Position numbers and translations under genes: made by a program. Source: Salinilacihabitans rarus (GTDB lineage Archaea > Halobacteriota > Halobacteria > Halobacteriales > Natrialbaceae). Taken from it: a stretch of 64,000 bases of DNA. The stretch is taken from positions 1,116,001 through 1,180,000 of the forward strand of contig NZ_CP100762.1 in assembly GCF_024296665.1 (NCBI RefSeq), written 5' to 3'. Below the pieces are notes generated by a model. It was not told the DNA's origin and made no database searches. It was given only the letters and a program-made list of their open reading frames with translations. This document shows positions 12,053 to 49,913 of the stretch, one piece after another. Positions within the stretch are counted from its first letter, which is position 1. Each line of letters starts with the position of its first letter.

Positions 12053-13081
12053 ATGCCGACGACGGAGGAGGACGGATCTCGGGGTCCCGACGCCCGAGTC
12101 GACGACGAACCGGCCGCCGACGACGCGTTCGGTGCCCTCGGCCACGAGGCCCGGACGCGGATCCTCGAAGCGATGCTCGACCGCGCCGGCGGCGACGGAC
12201 CGTCGCGGATGACCTTCTCGGAACTGTTCGAGGCGACCGACCTCGAGACGACCGCGGGGTTTGCCTACCACCTCGACGAACTCGTCGGCGTCTACCTCCG
12301 GAAGGTCGACGACGAGGCGGGCGACGACGGCGACCGGCGGACCGACGCGGGGTACGAGTTCACCTACGCGGGACGAAAGATCGCCCGTGCCATCGCGGCC
12401 GGTTCGTACACCCGCAGCGTCGACCGGCCGCCGATCGAACTCGACGATCCGTGTCCGCTCTGCGCGACGACGGGGGGAGACGGGACGGGGACGCTCGAAG
12501 CCCGGTCGCGCGACAACGTCGTCACCGTCTCGTGTCGGGACTGCGAGCGGCCGATCCTCGAACTCCAGTTCCCGCCCTCGGGGCTCGCGTCCCACGGCGA
12601 CGGGCTTCCGGACGCCTTCGACCGCCACCACCGCTACCGCGTCGCGCTCGCCGCCGACGGCGTCTGTCCCGAGTGCGGCGGGGTCGTCGACGCGGCCCTC
12701 GACTCCCCGCCCGAGGCCCTCGCCGACTCGCTGCCGCCGGAACTGCGCGAGCACGTGCAGGCCGAGCTATCGTGCGGGACCTGCGGCTTCGAACTCCGCT
12801 GTCCGGTCACGCTCGCCGTCCTCGAACACCCTGCGGTGATCTCGTTCTACGACGACCACGGCGAGAACGTCAGGGAGCGGCCGCTCTGGAACGTCGGGGC
12901 CGAGTGGACCGAGACGGTCCTCTCGGCCGATCCGGCGTGCGTGCGCGTCGTGACGGAACTCGACGGGGAGACGCTCGCGCTCTACCTCGACGGCTCGCTG
13001 CGGGTCGTCGACGTCCAGCGATCCGCGCCGGCCGAACGGTCGTCGGCGGTCGAGCCGACGGCCGACGGGACGACCGCCTGA
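12053..13081 (+). CDS. ArsR-like winged-helix regulator with zinc-ribbon domain
   Basis: 342 residues. Residues 20-120 form a winged helix-turn-helix beginning AFGALGHEARTRILEAML, with a wing region YEFTYAGRKIARAI. Residues 130 onward contain cysteine pairs (CPLC, then CRDC; CPEC, then CGTCGFELRCP) that look like two zinc ribbons. This architecture is common in haloarchaeal regulators of the DUF7347/DUF7351 type; the regulated genes are unknown. ATG 12053 was chosen because it lies just before the acidic linker; the open frame upstream to 12005 is poorly supported. It is convergent with the proteasome genes downstream. Confidence 0.7.
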   Translation: MPTTEEDGSRGPDARVDDEPAADDAFGALGHEARTRILEAMLDRAGGDGPSRMTFSELFEATDLETTAGFAYHLDELVGVYLRKVDDEAGDDGDRRTDAGYEFTYAGRKIARAIAAGSYTRSVDRPPIELDDPCPLCATTGGDGTGTLEARSRDNVVTVSCRDCERPILELQFPPSGLASHGDGLPDAFDRHHRYRVALAADGVCPECGGVVDAALDSPPEALADSLPPELREHVQAELSCGTCGFELRCPVTLAVLEHPAVISFYDDHGENVRERPLWNVGAEWTETVLSADPACVRVVTELDGETLALYLDGSLRVVDVQRSAPAERSSAVEPTADGTTA

Positions 13082-41401: not shown

Positions 41402-42796
41402 ATGACACACGACTGCGCGTTCCTCGCGGACCTCCCCCTCGGGGACGACCAGGTGTCGTTCGACGAGGGGCGCCGGGAGGCGCACGCGGCCGACTGGGGC
41501 GCACAGCAACGCGGCGGGGCGCGGACGCCGGACGCGGTGGTCTGGCCCGAGTCGACCGACGACGTCGCGGCCGTCCTCGCGGCCGCGACCGACCGGGACG
41601 TCCCCGTGACGCCGTACGCCGCCGGCACGGGTCTGGAAGCGAACGCCGTCCCCGCTCGCGGGGGGATCAGCCTCGACCTGACCCGGATGGACGACGTGCG
41701 CGACTACCGGCCCGAGGACTTCCAGATCGACGTCGGGCCGGGGATCATCGGCTCGGCCGTCGACGAGTACGTCGCCGACGACGGCCTCTTCTTCCCGCCG
41801 CTGCCCTCCTCGGGGGACATCTCGACGGTCGGCGGGATGATCGCCACCGACGCGAGCGGGATGAAGACCGTCAGGTACGGCGAGGTGCGCGACTGGGTGT
41901 TGCGCCTCGAAGTCGTCCTCGCCGACGGCACCGTGATCGAGACGGGGTCGCGGGCGCCGAAGACCTCGAGCGGCTACAACCTGACCGACCTGTTCGTCGG
42001 CAGCGAGGGCACCCTCGGCGTCGTCACCGAGGCGACGCTCGAACTCGCGGGCCGGCCGGAGCAGGTCCGCGGGGGGAGAGCCATCTTCGAGACGCTCGAC
42101 GACGCGACCGCGGCGGTCTCCGACGCCGTCCGGACGGGCGTCGACGTGGCGACGATCGAACTCGTCGACGGCCTGAGCGCGCGGATGGCCAACCGCTACC
42201 TCGGGACGGACCTGCCGGACGCGCCGATGGTCTTCTTCGAGTTCCACGCCGAACACGGGGTCGAGGAGGAAATCGACCTCTGCCGGACGCTCTTCGAGGC
42301 CCACGACGTCGCCCGCTTCGAGGTGGCGGCCGCCGACGACGGAATGGATCGCCTCTGGAAGGCCCGCCGGGAACTGGCCTACGCCGTCGCGTCCTACGAC
42401 CCCGACCTCGAACCGATCCACCCCGGCGACGTGACGGTGCCGATCAGTGCTTATCCCGAAATCGTCCGCGAGACCAAGCGTATCGCCGACGAGCACGACC
42501 TGCTCGCGCCCTGCTTCGGCCACGCCGGCGACGGCAACCTCCACTACACCGTCCTCGTCGACCGCGACGACCCCGAGCACGTCGAACTGGGCGAGGCGGT
42601 CTACGAGCGGGTCGTCGAACGCGCCCTCGACCTCGGCGGCACCGCCACCGGCGAGCACGGCATCGGCGCGGGCAAGCGGAAGTACGTAGAGCGCGAGCAC
42701 GGCGCGGGCGCCGTCGAGGCGATGCGCGCGGTAAAGCGGGCGCTCGACCCGACGGAGACGCTGAATCCGGGGAAGATCTTCCCCGAGGGAGAGTAG
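41402..42796 (+). CDS. FAD-linked oxidase (glycolate oxidase GlcD / D-lactate dehydrogenase-like)
   Basis: 464 residues. The FAD-binding_4 domain (about 38-180) has VVWPESTDDVAAVLAAA, VTPYAAGTGLEANAVP, PPLPSSGDISTVGGMIATDA and LFVGSEGTLGVVTEATLELA. The FAD-oxidase_C domain follows, with CFGHAGDGNLHYTVLVD and TATGEHGIGAGKRKYVERE. These are the signatures of the GlcD/D-lactate dehydrogenase group that oxidises 2-hydroxyacids in the cytoplasm or at the membrane. No iron-sulfur partner (GlcF-like) is adjacent. The earlier open frame from 40652 crosses the DUF5789 gene and is not used. Confidence 0.88.
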   Translation: MTHDCAFLADLPLGDDQVSFDEGRREAHAADWGAQQRGGARTPDAVVWPESTDDVAAVLAAATDRDVPVTPYAAGTGLEANAVPARGGISLDLTRMDDVRDYRPEDFQIDVGPGIIGSAVDEYVADDGLFFPPLPSSGDISTVGGMIATDASGMKTVRYGEVRDWVLRLEVVLADGTVIETGSRAPKTSSGYNLTDLFVGSEGTLGVVTEATLELAGRPEQVRGGRAIFETLDDATAAVSDAVRTGVDVATIELVDGLSARMANRYLGTDLPDAPMVFFEFHAEHGVEEEIDLCRTLFEAHDVARFEVAAADDGMDRLWKARRELAYAVASYDPDLEPIHPGDVTVPISAYPEIVRETKRIADEHDLLAPCFGHAGDGNLHYTVLVDRDDPEHVELGEAVYERVVERALDLGGTATGEHGIGAGKRKYVEREHGAGAVEAMRAVKRALDPTETLNPGKIFPEGE

Positions 42797-42797
42797 G

Positions 42798-44123
42798 TTA
42801 CAGCAGGCGCTCGACCGTCGCGAGGGCGTTCGTCCGTCCGAAGCCGGAATCGGAGTCGCTCCCGCCGTCGGTCCCTTCCGCGCCGGCCGCGATAGCGCGC
42901 TCGACCTGCCGGGCGTTCGCCCCGGGTTCGAGTTCGCGCACGAGCGCGGCGAGGCCGGTCACCTGCGGCGCGGCCATCGAGGTCCCCATGAGCCAGCCGT
43001 ACGCGTGGCCGTCGATCGTCGTGTCGACGTAGGGACCGGAGAGGAGCCCCTCGTCCGGCACCGTCGAGAACACCGCGTTGAGCGGCCACGGACGCTCGAC
43101 CGCGTCGGGGCCGGCGACGATCGTCTTCTCGACCGTCTCGTAGCCGCCGCCGGGCGCCGCGACGTCGATCTCGTTCGTCCCGTAGTTCGAGTAGAACGTC
43201 CGCTCGTCGTCCGGCGTGGACGCCCCGATCGACACCACGCCGGCGAGGCTGTTCGGCAGCGTGAACAGCCCGCCCTGCTGGAGGTTCGCGTCGGAGTTCC
43301 CCGCGGAACCGACCAGCAGCGTCCCCGCCGCCGTGGCGGTCTGTGCGACCGACTCCATCAGCCGACGGTACTGGTAGGCGTTGAACTCGGGCGGGATCGG
43401 CGAGGTGCCGATGCTCATGTTCGCGGCGTCGGCGCCGACGTCGGCGGCGTACTCGATCCCGGCGAGGACGTCGCCCCACGTGCCCGTGTCGGGGCCGAGG
43501 ATGCGAACCGAGACGACCGTCGCACCCGGCGCGGTGCCGAGCATCCCGACCTCGCCGGTCGCGGCGGCGGTTCCGGCGACGTGGGTGCCGTGATAGCCGG
43601 AGTCGCCGGTGTGTTCGGCCGGCCGTCCGTCGATCATCGTGGCGCTCGCGTCGACGTCGACGTTCAGGTCCGGATGCGAGTCGTCGACCCCCGTGTCGAG
43701 GACCGCGATCGTTCGGCCGGCGCCCGTGGCGTGCTCGTGGGCCTCGCGTACCTCCTGTACCTGCTTGTCCCAGAGGAGTTCGTCGTAGACCTCGTCGACG
43801 TCGGTCCCGTCGGCCTCGGCGGGCGACGCCTCGACCTCGGGCGTCACGAGTTCGACGTCGAGGTCCGGCACCGCCGTCGAGACCCCGCTGATCGCCCCGA
43901 GGTCCGCGGCCGCGTCCGCGGAACCGGCGACGAGCAGTACGTTACCTCCCGCGAGCGCGTTCAGCACCTCGAAGCCGGCGGCCTCGATCCGGGCGGCGGC
44001 GTCGTCGGTCGCGCCGACGACGTACCGCGCCCGGCCGTCGCTCGCCGACGCCGGTCCGGTAAACGCCAGCGTGGCGCTCGCAGCACCGATTCCCCTCAGT
44101 ACGGAGCGTCTGTTCAGATTCAT
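42798..44123 (-). CDS. Tat-exported subtilisin-like serine protease (halolysin-type)
   Basis: 441 residues. The signal peptide MNLNRRSVLRGIGAASATLA carries the twin Arg of Tat substrates. An I9-like propeptide spans about 32-95. The catalytic Asp143 is in IAVLDTGVDDSHPDL, His178 in SGYHGTHVAGTAAAT, the oxyanion Asn in LLVGSAGNSDANL and the Ser in GWLMGTSMAAPQVTG (near residue 390). The arrangement matches extracellular subtilases of haloarchaea, but the C-terminal extension seen in classical halolysins is absent. The coding end nearly meets that of the FAD oxidase (convergent). A long palindrome abuts the start codon. Confidence 0.92.
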   Translation of the reverse strand: MNLNRRSVLRGIGAASATLAFTGPASASDGRARYVVGATDDAAARIEAAGFEVLNALAGGNVLLVAGSADAAADLGAISGVSTAVPDLDVELVTPEVEASPAEADGTDVDEVYDELLWDKQVQEVREAHEHATGAGRTIAVLDTGVDDSHPDLNVDVDASATMIDGRPAEHTGDSGYHGTHVAGTAAATGEVGMLGTAPGATVVSVRILGPDTGTWGDVLAGIEYAADVGADAANMSIGTSPIPPEFNAYQYRRLMESVAQTATAAGTLLVGSAGNSDANLQQGGLFTLPNSLAGVVSIGASTPDDERTFYSNYGTNEIDVAAPGGGYETVEKTIVAGPDAVERPWPLNAVFSTVPDEGLLSGPYVDTTIDGHAYGWLMGTSMAAPQVTGLAALVRELEPGANARQVERAIAAGAEGTDGGSDSDSGFGRTNALATVERLL

Positions 44124-44155
44124 GGTAGTCTAACCCGCGTGACGGGTTAGCTACC
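44124..44155. promoter_or_regulatory. 32-bp palindrome directly upstream of the subtilase start codon
   Basis: On the plus strand GGTAG, T, CTAACCCG, CGTGA, CGGGTTAG, CTACC: two 13-base arms, perfectly complementary except for one unpaired T, around a 5-base centre. It begins at the base adjacent to the ATG (44121-44123). The TATA-like element at 44171-44180 predicts transcription starting around 44150, within the right arm, so the mRNA would contain only part of it; a DNA operator is more likely than an RNA hairpin. Confidence 0.55.
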
Positions 44156-44170
44156 GATACTGTAATGACC

Positions 44171-44180
44171 CCGTAAATAA
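44171..44180 (-). promoter_or_regulatory. TATA-like box of the subtilase gene
   Basis: On the minus strand TTATTTACGG, about 50 bases before the ATG at 44123. It places the transcription start inside or at the edge of the palindrome at 44124-44155. Confidence 0.45.
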
Positions 44181-44283: not shown

Positions 44284-45999
44284 TCAGTCGTGGACCAGTA
44301 CGTCGAGCACCGTCGGGCCGTCGGCGTCGAGCGCCCGTTCGAGCGCCGGGCCGATCCCCGACGGCTCGTCGACCAGTTCGGCGTCGGCGCCGTGGCTCTC
44401 GGCGTTCGCGACGACGTCGACCGGGGGTTCGAAGTCCGTGCCGACGAACTCGTGGCCCTCGATCTCGACGCCGAGGAGGTCCGCGGCGTTCTCCTTCAGG
44501 ATGCGGTAGTTGCGGTTGTCCACGACGACGACGGTGAGGTCGACGTCGTAGCGCGCGGCCGAGTAGATCGCCTGCGGGTAGTAGAGGTACGAGCCGTCGC
44601 CGACGTAGCCGATCACGTCCCGGGGGTCGTCGCGGTCGTTCTCGGCGATGGCGGCGCCGACGGCGGCCGGCAGCCCGTAGCCGAGGCCGCCGCCCTTGTT
44701 CGAGAGCAGCCCCTCGGGTTCGAACGGCCGGCGAGTCAGCAGCGCGTACCGCGCGGTGACGCCCTCGTCGACGACGTAGGCGTCGGGGGCGACCTCGTTC
44801 ATCGCGTCGACCAGTTCGGCCTTCGACGCCCGCGGGTCGTCGGTGTCGCTCTCGCCCATCGCCCGCACCGTCCCGTCGAGGGCCTCTTTCGTCGCGTGAA
44901 CGGTTTCGAGGCGGCTCTCGCGGGACTCCGCGTCGAGGCGGTCGGCGACGCGCGCGGCGAGGGCGGCCATCGCCTCGCCCGGATCGGCGAGCACCGCGGC
45001 GTCGGCGGGCTGGTTCTTCCCGAGTTCCCACGCGTCGTCTCCGACGTGGATGCACGTCGTGTTCGATCCCACCAGCGGTTCGTCGTGGGCGACGAGCGTC
45101 GTGTTCGTCGAGGTGCCGACGAAAAGCAGCGTGTCCGACGACATGAGCGTCGACGCCATCGCCTCGTCCGGCGGGATCGGCGAGAGCCACGCCTCGTGCG
45201 AGCGGGGGAAGTTCACCTCGCTCGCCATGATCTCCTCGTGGACGCGCAGTCCGGCCGCCTCCGCGAGGTCGACCGCGGCCTCGACGGCCTCGGTCCCGGC
45301 GCGGGCGACGCCGTCGCCCAGCACCATGGCGGGGCCGTCGGCCTCGACCAGCAGGTCCGCCGCGCGGTCGAGCGCCGACGGATCGCCCGCGCCCGCGGTA
45401 GGGATCGGCCCCAGTCGTTCGGGTTCGGCGTCGGTCTCGGCGGTCGTCACGTCGAGCGGGAGCGCGAGGAAGACCGGGCCGGTCGGCGGCGTCAGCGCGA
45501 CCCGGAACGCCCGCCGGAGCATCGCTGGCAGCGCCTCGACGTCCAGAACCTCCGCGCTCCACTTCGTGAACGGCTCGGCGAGGTCGACGACGTCGCCCGA
45601 GAGGATCGGCTCCTCGTGGCGGAAGTCGGTGCGGTGGTTCCCGGTCGTCACGACCAGCGGCGCCCCGGCGACCATCGCGCCGTAGAGGTTGCCCAGCCCG
45701 TGGGCCAGCCCCGGCGCGAGGTGGAGGTTGACGACGCCGACGGGGTTGTGCGCGGTCGGGTCGCCGTCGCCGCCCAGCGCCCCCGCCTCGACCGCGCGGT
45801 AGCGGCGGGTGCTCGCGTAGCCGGCGGCCATCCCGACCGCGACGTCCTCGTGGAGCGCCAGCCGGTAGTCGACGTCGCTCCCGCCGAGTGCCTCCGTGAT
45901 CGGCAACTCGGTCGTCCCGGGGTTGCCGAAGACGTACTCGACGCCGTAGGATTCGAGCGCCTCGACGAACAGGTCCGCGCCCGTACGTTGGGATTCCAT
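44284..45999 (-). CDS. Thiamine-pyrophosphate enzyme (acetolactate synthase/benzoylformate decarboxylase-like)
   Basis: 571 residues with the three TPP-enzyme domains. The N-terminal PYR domain has VEYVFGNPGTTELPITEAL and the catalytic Glu region LHEDVAVGMAAGYAS. The central domain holds ADLLVEADGPAMVLGDGVA. The C-terminal PP domain has LLSNKGGGLGYGLPAAVGAA and VIGYVGDGSYLYYPQAIYSA with VVVDNRNYRILKEN (GDG...N). Decarboxylase or carboligase chemistry on a 2-oxoacid is expected. It is not in an ilv cluster and no small regulatory subunit follows, so it is probably not the biosynthetic acetolactate synthase. ATG 45999 was chosen at the conserved start. Divergent from the UbiA gene. Confidence 0.82.
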   Translation of the reverse strand: MESQRTGADLFVEALESYGVEYVFGNPGTTELPITEALGGSDVDYRLALHEDVAVGMAAGYASTRRYRAVEAGALGGDGDPTAHNPVGVVNLHLAPGLAHGLGNLYGAMVAGAPLVVTTGNHRTDFRHEEPILSGDVVDLAEPFTKWSAEVLDVEALPAMLRRAFRVALTPPTGPVFLALPLDVTTAETDAEPERLGPIPTAGAGDPSALDRAADLLVEADGPAMVLGDGVARAGTEAVEAAVDLAEAAGLRVHEEIMASEVNFPRSHEAWLSPIPPDEAMASTLMSSDTLLFVGTSTNTTLVAHDEPLVGSNTTCIHVGDDAWELGKNQPADAAVLADPGEAMAALAARVADRLDAESRESRLETVHATKEALDGTVRAMGESDTDDPRASKAELVDAMNEVAPDAYVVDEGVTARYALLTRRPFEPEGLLSNKGGGLGYGLPAAVGAAIAENDRDDPRDVIGYVGDGSYLYYPQAIYSAARYDVDLTVVVVDNRNYRILKENAADLLGVEIEGHEFVGTDFEPPVDVVANAESHGADAELVDEPSGIGPALERALDADGPTVLDVLVHD

Positions 46000-47025: not shown

Positions 47026-47403
47026 TCAGTCGAGGTCGAGGTTCCGAAGCTCCTCGAGTTCCTCGGTCTGTCGGAACTGGTCGAGCAGGGACTCGACGTC
47101 CGAGAACCCCGCCGCCACGACGACGTCGCCGCTGCGCAGGTCGTACTCGACGATGCCGTAGTCGGCGAGCCGCGGGAGGTGGTTGTGGACCATCGAGACG
47201 TACACGAGCTGTCTGGCCTCCTCGTCGACGGCCGCGACCGGCACCCCACGTTCCCAGGCCGCGATCTGTGGTACGAGGGCGTCGAGGTTCGCGTGGCTCT
47301 CGCCGCGCCCGGCCAGCAGATACAGCAGGAACCGCCGCTGTGGCTCCGCGAGCAGGGTACAGGCGGCATCCATCCGCTCGGCGTGCCCGACTGACCGTTG
47401 CAT
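47026..47403 (-). CDS. DUF7344 winged-helix protein
   Basis: 125 residues. The haloarchaeal DUF7344 fold is clear: ERMDAACTLLAEPQRRFLLY, then DALVPQIAAWERGVP, YVSMVHNHLPRLADYGIVEY and SGDVVVAAG. These are small putative transcription regulators with a winged helix. ATG 47403 was chosen; the open frame extends further upstream but loses similarity. Two other DUF7344 genes lie in this window (48499 and 53834). Confidence 0.8.
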   Translation of the reverse strand: MQRSVGHAERMDAACTLLAEPQRRFLLYLLAGRGESHANLDALVPQIAAWERGVPVAAVDEEARQLVYVSMVHNHLPRLADYGIVEYDLRSGDVVVAAGFSDVESLLDQFRQTEELEELRNLDLD

Positions 47404-47557
47404 ACCTGAGGAGAGGTCACGGGGAGTATTAGGGGCTGGTGCCAAAACAGATAGGGCCGCAACACTCGTTTTCGAGGCGTACAGGTGGGAGAAACGAACG
47501 ATCAAGGTTTCCGACATCGTCGCGAAATCGCGGTCCGATAGCCGCCGCGACCCGGCC

Positions 47558-48498: not shown

Positions 48499-48780
48499 AT
48501 GAATGACAAGATGTTTACTGCGTTGGCCCACGCGCAGCGACGCCAATTCTTATTCGACCTGTTAGACCACAACCCGCAAGAGACCTCGGGGCCATCTCCC
48601 AGTCCGCGGGGGGACGCCACACGGGACGAGGAACTGGTCAGTAAACATCACGTTCACCTCCCCAAACTGGCCGATTACGGCTACATCGAGTGGGACCGAG
48701 ACGCTGGCCTCGTAACGAAAGGGCCGCAGTTCGACGAGATCCGGCCTCTTCTCGAGTTTCTGGATGGCCGCCGGGACTGA
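48499..48780 (+). CDS. DUF7344 winged-helix protein (small)
   Basis: 93 residues: MFTALAHAQRRQFLFDLLDH, then LVSKHHVHLPKLADYGYIEW and LVTKGPQFDEIRPLLEFL, the minimal DUF7344 winged helix. A strong GAGGAGC (48487-48493) lies 5 bases before the ATG, so this gene is probably translated by a Shine-Dalgarno mechanism from a transcript with a leader. G+C is lower than in its neighbours. Confidence 0.75.
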   Translation: MNDKMFTALAHAQRRQFLFDLLDHNPQETSGPSPSPRGDATRDEELVSKHHVHLPKLADYGYIEWDRDAGLVTKGPQFDEIRPLLEFLDGRRD

Positions 48781-49094: not shown

Positions 49095-49913
49095 ATGACA
49101 CAGGATACGACTACCAGCGAGGCGGTGAGTCTGCTGCAAGAACTCGGGCTGCAAGAGTACGAATCGCGGTGCTTTCTGGCGTTGACACAGCTTCCAAGCG
49201 GGACGGCAAAGGAGATCCACGAAATCTCGGAGGTCCCGCGGACGCGGGTGTACGACGCCATCCGGGTGCTGGAGTCACAGGGGCTGGTCGAGGTCCAGCA
49301 CTCGAGCCCACAGCAGTACCGCGCGGTCAGTATCGGCGAGGCGACTCGCACGCTCCGCCAGAAGTACTCCGATCGGATCGATACGCTCGAAACGCATCTC
49401 GAGGCGATCGAACACCGCGAAGTCGAGTCGGACAACGACCGGGTTCAGGAAGTGTGGTCGCTGGCCGGCAACGACGCGATCGACTCCCGGACGTTCGACC
49501 TGATCGACGGCGCGGACTCGGAGATCGCACTGCTCGTCGTGGACGAATCGCTCCTGTCGGAGCCGCTCTTCGAGAGCCTCCACGACGCCGTGGAACGGGA
49601 GCTCTCGATCGTTCTCGGCGGCCAGACGAAGCAGATCACGTCCCGGCTGGGGACGGAGCTCCCGAACATCACCACGTTCGAGACCGGATTGGACTGGCTC
49701 ACGGGGCCGTGGTCCGATCACGAAGTGGCGATCAGCCGGATTCTGCTCGTCGACAAGGCGACGCTGTTGATCGGATCGTACTACCCGGACAGCAACGACA
49801 GCGCGGGGAAAGAACGGGCGGTCTACGCTACGGGCCTCGAAAACGGAGTCGTCGTCCTCCTTCGCCGACTGATCTCGTCGGGGTTGGCACCCGCCAGCGA
49901 TCCGGGCAAGTGA
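49095..49913 (+). CDS. TrmB-family transcriptional regulator
   Basis: 272 residues. The N-terminal winged helix is typical of TrmB: LLQELGLQEYESRCFLALTQ, GTAKEIHEISEVPRTRVYDA and RVLESQGLVEVQHSSPQQYR. A coiled-coil segment follows (DRIDTLETHLEAIEHREVES). The C-terminal 150 residues form the PLD-like sensor domain (SRTFDLIDGADSEIALLVVD; RILLVDKATLLIGSYYPD). TrmB proteins sense sugars or other ligands and control transport or central metabolism; no target gene is next to it, so it may act elsewhere. Base composition is less G+C-rich than the core. Confidence 0.85.
   Translation: MTQDTTTSEAVSLLQELGLQEYESRCFLALTQLPSGTAKEIHEISEVPRTRVYDAIRVLESQGLVEVQHSSPQQYRAVSIGEATRTLRQKYSDRIDTLETHLEAIEHREVESDNDRVQEVWSLAGNDAIDSRTFDLIDGADSEIALLVVDESLLSEPLFESLHDAVERELSIVLGGQTKQITSRLGTELPNITTFETGLDWLTGPWSDHEVAISRILLVDKATLLIGSYYPDSNDSAGKERAVYATGLENGVVVLLRRLISSGLAPASDPGK

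Follow-up and report, generated by a model that had tools for sequence, protein, structure and literature searches.

Does the palindrome that precedes an exported subtilase gene in a haloarchaeal genome act as DNA, by binding a regulator, or as RNA, by folding at the front of the message? Among the secreted proteases of haloarchaea, the best-studied enzyme is SptA, whose known control elements act on transcription. If many related genes do hold a leader hairpin at a favoured spacing from the ATG, it would add a post-transcriptional layer to this control. In addition, the related leaders would offer naturally occurring variants, ranging from about -5 to -20 kcal/mol, in which stem stability could be compared with initiation on leaders that lack a Shine-Dalgarno sequence. 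The locus resides in a 64-kb window, by which we mean the whole stretch of DNA that was analysed, and the genome that hosts this window is a single contig of 3.62 Mb.

Sequence and genomic context of the palindrome

The plus strand at 44124-44155, read directly, is GGTAG-T-CTAACCCG-CGTGA-CGGGTTAG-CTACC, a 32-bp palindrome composed of 13 pairs, one unpaired base and a 5-base centre. The CAT at 44121-44123 is the ATG of a minus-strand gene, and the palindrome abuts this start codon. The original prediction had described 13-base arms with one unpaired T and a 5-base centre touching an ATG, and every coordinate that it gave is correct. The features of the locus are as follows.

44124..44155, minus strand: whole imperfect palindrome or hairpin; the sense sequence is GGTAGCTAACCCGTCACGCGGGTTAGACTACC, then directly ATG
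44130..44150, minus strand: inner helix of 8 bp (CTAACCCG/CGGGTTAG) with a 5-nt centre; from the sequence, the fold of the trimmed leader and its uniqueness in the genome
44151..44155, minus strand: 5ʹ outer arm, GGTAG in the sense strand, whose partner is CTACC at 44124-44128; from the sequence and TATA spacing
44124..44128, minus strand: 3ʹ outer arm, CTACC, adjoining the start codon; from the sequence
44129, minus strand: single unpaired base between the inner and outer helices, A on the sense strand and T on the plus strand; from the sequence and fold
44174..44180, minus strand: TATA-like element TTATTTA, with its centre about 54 nt before the ATG; from the sequence and a TATA scan of relatives
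42798..44123, minus strand: subtilase (S8) gene, 441 aa, with twin-arginine signal MNLNRRSVLRGIGAASATLAFTGPASA; Pfam PF00082, E 9e-44
44284..45987, minus strand: gene for a thiamine-diphosphate enzyme (benzoylformate decarboxylase/acetolactate synthase-like); Pfam, with NCBIfam below cut-off

The subtilase protein contains a full Peptidase_S8 domain, its nearest solved relatives are subtilisins, and position 44123 is the most upstream in-frame start of its gene. This domain and the twin-arginine signal bear out the proposal that the gene encodes an exported subtilase, with the Tat system as the route. The stop codons of the subtilase gene and of a convergent gene for an FAD-linked oxidase (plus strand, ending at 42796) are one base apart (42796-42798). 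Elsewhere in the window, two DUF7344 proteins are encoded at 47026-47517 and 48499-48780, less than 1.8 kb apart, and a TrmB-like regulator gene occupies 49095-49913.

The thiamine-diphosphate enzyme gene is co-oriented with the subtilase gene and ends 160 bp before its start, and an inverted repeat downstream of such a gene might serve as its transcription terminator. However, the repeat lies about 130-160 bp past the stop codon of the upstream gene and downstream of the TATA element, and we consider this function extremely improbable. An intrinsic terminator was rejected, as the hairpin is followed by ATGAATCTG and not by a run of U residues.

Predicted RNA fold and transcription start

As RNA, the 32 nt of the palindrome fold with a predicted free energy of -20.6 kcal/mol (z -6.2), a value that none of 200 shuffled sequences reached. 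When the leader is trimmed to the inner helix and a single-stranded 3ʹ spacer, ACUACC, the predicted value is -13.2 kcal/mol. No Shine-Dalgarno-like GGAGG is visible within these 32 nt. Searches with the Rfam 15 covariance models returned nothing relevant, the sole sub-threshold match being located elsewhere and on the other strand.

Archaeal transcription usually starts about 25 bp from the TATA element. For a TATA centre at 54 nt, this distance predicts a transcription start near 44150-44153. Such a message would contain the whole of the inner 8-bp helix, whereas the outer GGTAG arm may lie upstream of the start. The TATA box had originally been placed at 44171-44180, which agrees with the TTATTTA element to within a few bases, and the start had been placed within the right arm, in or near which the TATA position also puts it. 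A start upstream of the whole repeat had been named as the outcome that would indicate an RNA hairpin instead of an operator. The predicted start does not quite fit this description, because it falls at or just inside the outer arm, but it would leave the inner helix within the mRNA. The locus has the arrangement expected of a haloarchaeal regulatory 5ʹ-UTR stem-loop, namely a stable sense-strand stem-loop between the promoter and the start codon.

Rarity of the palindrome in the host genome

Inverted repeats can arise in a G+C-rich genome by chance and have no function. This explanation gains some weight from a third-order Markov null, under which about 2.3 palindromes of the same score are expected per 64 kb, with four seen. 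The placement of the palindrome is more unusual. Genome-wide statistics were derived from a 464-kb sample of the host genome with simple gene calling, and among the 229 start regions with intergenic upstream sequence in this sample (mean folding z -0.06), the subtilase leader has the lowest folding z (-5.0). By stem score, one other first-start region equals the palindrome, and its start appears to have been miscalled within coding sequence. Scores of at least 11 were attained by 2 of 328 upstream and 0 of 338 coding control windows of 45 nt. The original claim that the repeat is far beyond chance is therefore overstated for the palindrome considered by itself, but its placement is indeed unusual. 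Chance is also disfavoured by a positional enrichment of hairpins in related leaders that persists without the cluster to which the host protein belongs, and by the similarity of the leader to one from another family (both described below). We judge a chance origin to be quite improbable.

A second palindrome that directly abuts a start codon was observed in the same genome. At L133, on the minus strand upstream of position 12290, the perfect palindrome ACGCGCCCGTACGGGCGCGT is joined directly to an ATG (MIVFVAGSTGVLGRR...).

Search for additional operator copies

The palindrome was originally proposed to be the binding site of a regulator dimer, with further arm-N5-arm sites in the genome defining a regulon. 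We searched with the exact core, with as many as three mismatches and with relaxed spacing, and one good site was recovered. The exact core CTAACCCG-N5-CGGGTTAG has a single copy in the 3.62-Mb genome, where the next best site carries two mismatches, and none of 124 other family genomes contains it. Two looser AACCCG-N7-CGGGTT sites occur elsewhere in the genome, and their 7-base centres give them a different spacing. No additional copies upstream of other genes were found in the host genome or in the 124 family genomes, and the regulon was rejected on the basis of this single-copy distribution.

A dedicated single-site regulator would not need further operator copies. Specifically, a dimeric regulator devoted to the subtilase gene might bind the palindrome over the transcription start and block the recruitment of RNA polymerase or initiation. 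The perfect 8-bp inner arms and the 5-bp centre at the predicted start are consistent with such a site. Like the operators of archaeal regulators, which are semi-palindromes downstream of TATA, the repeat is palindromic and near the predicted start. Moreover, archaeal regulators usually bind semi-palindromes, and the halolysin gene sptA has a negative semi-palindromic element just upstream of its start site (PMC6085418). Unlike these operators, however, the repeat is single-copy, and its sequence and spacing vary in relatives. No regulator gene adjoins the subtilase gene. Conserved half-sites at a fixed spacing were not found among the relatives, whose arms differ between genera and whose CCC/GGG spacing ranges from 5 to 7, although the position is kept. 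A dimer operator is expected to retain both sequence and spacing, and thus these unrelated palindromes argue against one. An operator is in our view unlikely, although the more general expectation that the palindrome is regulatory is probably right.

Hairpins in related subtilase leaders

Related subtilases were gathered from 61 genomes of relatives, 125 genomes of the family, 392 genomes of the order and a number of named genomes, and their start codons were assigned beside the twin-arginine motif. In many of the corresponding leaders, a small hairpin lies downstream of the TATA element and before the ATG. Its arms differ by genus, as in these examples.

g6: hairpin arms ATCCC/GGGAT and TCCC/GGGA
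g28: hairpin arms ACCCC/GGGGT
g33: hairpin arms CCTCG/CGAGG
g13 paralogues: hairpin arms GCGTGATGG/CCATCACGC

Other related subtilases have a short leader and no hairpin, and g3, the sister genus by protein (about 68% identical), mostly lacks one. When mapped onto the protein tree, hairpin presence is clustered (12 changes versus 17.5 when shuffled, with 1 of 500 shuffles as low), and it has been gained or lost repeatedly.

The position of these hairpins was evaluated by taking the best hairpin that ends at each distance from the ATG in 67 non-redundant leaders, drawn from several families, and comparing it with those of dinucleotide shuffles. At a distance of 8-11 nt, the hairpins average -2.62 kcal/mol, versus -1.36 kcal/mol in shuffled leaders (z -5.5; 0 of 504 shuffles). 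Distances of 4-7 nt (z -1.8) and 12-15 nt (z -0.9) are near background, and a raised value is also observed at 0-3 nt (z -4.0). The peak at 8-11 nt persists when 13 protein clusters (60% identity) are weighted equally (z -3.6; 0 of 150) and when the cluster containing the host protein is omitted (z -3.4; 0 of 150). No such excess is present in the 228 other start regions of the host genome. The excess of hairpins in related leaders is therefore specific to position. Folding at p ≤0.05 was found for 14 of 70 leaders, one of which is counted twice owing to two start choices, versus 4 for sequence further upstream.

The promoters of these genes are shifted in a corresponding manner. Among the 20 leaders whose hairpin reaches -5 kcal/mol or lower, the median position of the TATA centre is 51.5 nt upstream of the ATG, versus 38 nt in the 41 leaders that have none (p 0.012), and the TATA elements of the hairpin leaders cluster at 47-54 nt. 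This difference indicates that the hairpin sits downstream of the promoter, and in most hairpin leaders it probably forms the 5ʹ end of the transcript. The exceptions are L117 and L118, in which the TATA element is too near for the 5ʹ arm to be transcribed. With a hairpin 8-11 nt before the ATG and a TATA element about 50 nt upstream, the layout would be better accounted for by a transcribed leader hairpin than by an operator.

The best alignment of the host leader is with the G317 leader, from another family, at a score of 35.5 versus a 99% null maximum of 29. The two subtilase proteins are about 48-51% identical. Common to both leaders are the loop CGTCAC(G/A)CG, an upstream TCGGTA and a downstream GACTAC, and the host stem exceeds that of G317 by 4 bases on one side and by 3-4 on the other. 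The combined loop and flank pattern was found in 4 of 392 genomes, where two occurrences are the host and G317 leaders themselves and two apparently lie in coding sequence.

Tests that might distinguish an RNA from a DNA role gave no significant signal. In a sequence-only alignment of 11 leaders, whose register is unreliable, covariation did not exceed that of shuffled alignments, and RNAalifold recovered no consensus pair from the same alignment. A wobble test on the stems with symmetric scoring counted 11 G-U versus 8 A-C pairs (p 0.32) and did not favour the sense strand, a result that is compatible with a DNA role as well. Likewise, the mean folding z over 70 leaders does not differ clearly between the sense (-0.62) and antisense (-0.56) strands. 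Because neither covariation nor wobble is significant, the argument for RNA rests on the position of the hairpins, the promoter shift and the change of arms at a kept position.

A candidate leader hairpin in the control of translation

The explanation that we tentatively prefer, at somewhat less than an even chance, is that the subtilase mRNA begins with a hairpin encoded by the palindrome, or has it only a few nucleotides from its 5ʹ end, and that this hairpin would hinder or tune translation initiation. From the predicted start, the message would open with the CUAACCCG/CGGGUUAG stem-loop, continue with a short spacer (the unpaired A and CUACC) and then reach the AUG. On a leader of this type, which lacks a Shine-Dalgarno sequence, a stem-loop that forms near the start codon in the cell could restrict or adjust the access of ribosomes, and synthesis of the secreted protease would be held down or made conditional. 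Ordinary translation may not tolerate a hairpin as stable as that of the host (-13 to -21 kcal/mol).

A precedent exists in Haloferax volcanii (Brenneis and Soppa 2009, PMC2636863). There, a 5ʹ-UTR stem-loop of the hp transcript, predicted at -7.4 kcal/mol, controls growth-phase-dependent translation and reportedly acts in cis. Stabilizing that stem-loop stopped translation, whereas destabilizing it resulted in constitutive high translation (PMC2636863). The subtilase element likewise is predicted to be a haloarchaeal 5ʹ-UTR stem-loop, and the trimmed leaders of two relatives fold at -5.8 and -7.6 kcal/mol, near the value for hp. Given that the native stem-loop of -7.4 kcal/mol regulates translation and that hairpins of the relatives are in its range, the host hairpin most probably serves to reduce ribosome access or make it conditional. 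The two systems differ in that another gene is involved, in that the subtilase hairpin is predicted at the very 5ʹ end and is found again in related genes at a favoured spacing from the ATG, and in that the host copy, whose role is putative, is far more stable. The element is best filed with the haloarchaeal 5ʹ-UTR stem-loops, with a putative function.

The same 5ʹ-terminal hairpin might instead act mainly by shielding the 5ʹ end from 5ʹ-to-3ʹ decay, which would prolong the life of the protease mRNA. This is the nearest alternative to translational control, and in both the host and several relatives the predicted start is located at the foot of the hairpin (TATA centre 47-54 nt and hairpin start about 21-28 nt before the ATG). 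Haloarchaeal UTR structures often stabilize mRNA, as for gvpA, although the gvpA stem-loop is 3ʹ of the gene (PMC4390858). Translation accounts more readily for the preferred gap of 8-11 nt to the ATG, and a role chiefly in mRNA stability appears doubtful to us.

Control of translation would also set the subtilase element apart from sptA of Natrinema sp. J7-2, whose semi-palindromic cis elements precede the start, being placed upstream of and over the BRE and over the WW motif (PMC6085418). Both genes encode exported haloarchaeal subtilases with inverted repeats at the promoter. However, the sptA elements act upstream of the transcription start, and its leader is 4 nt, with the ORF at +5 (PMC6085418), which leaves no room for a hairpin. 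The subtilase hairpin would therefore represent a different layer of control.

A broader version of translational control can be envisaged, in which subtilases across several haloarchaeal families retain the place and form of a 5ʹ-terminal leader hairpin even as its bases are replaced, and use it as a cis-acting switch (responding to salt, temperature or growth phase) that times protease translation. We offer this generalization as a speculation that is unlikely to hold in full.

Palindromic sequence was also encountered at subtilase paralogues of G121, G122 and G141. The palindrome GCGTGATGGTATACCATCACGC, imperfect in G141, has only one close copy in each of the G121 and G122 genomes, and the host genome contains no match to it better than 3 mismatches. 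At these paralogues (leaders L102, L103 and L104), a 24-bp palindrome, TGCGTGATGGTATACCATCACGCA, is located downstream of TATA and before the start, likewise with one close copy each in G121 and G122. It is perfect in G121, its 22-bp core is identical in G122, and the G141 version carries two changes that can still pair as G-U in the sense RNA.
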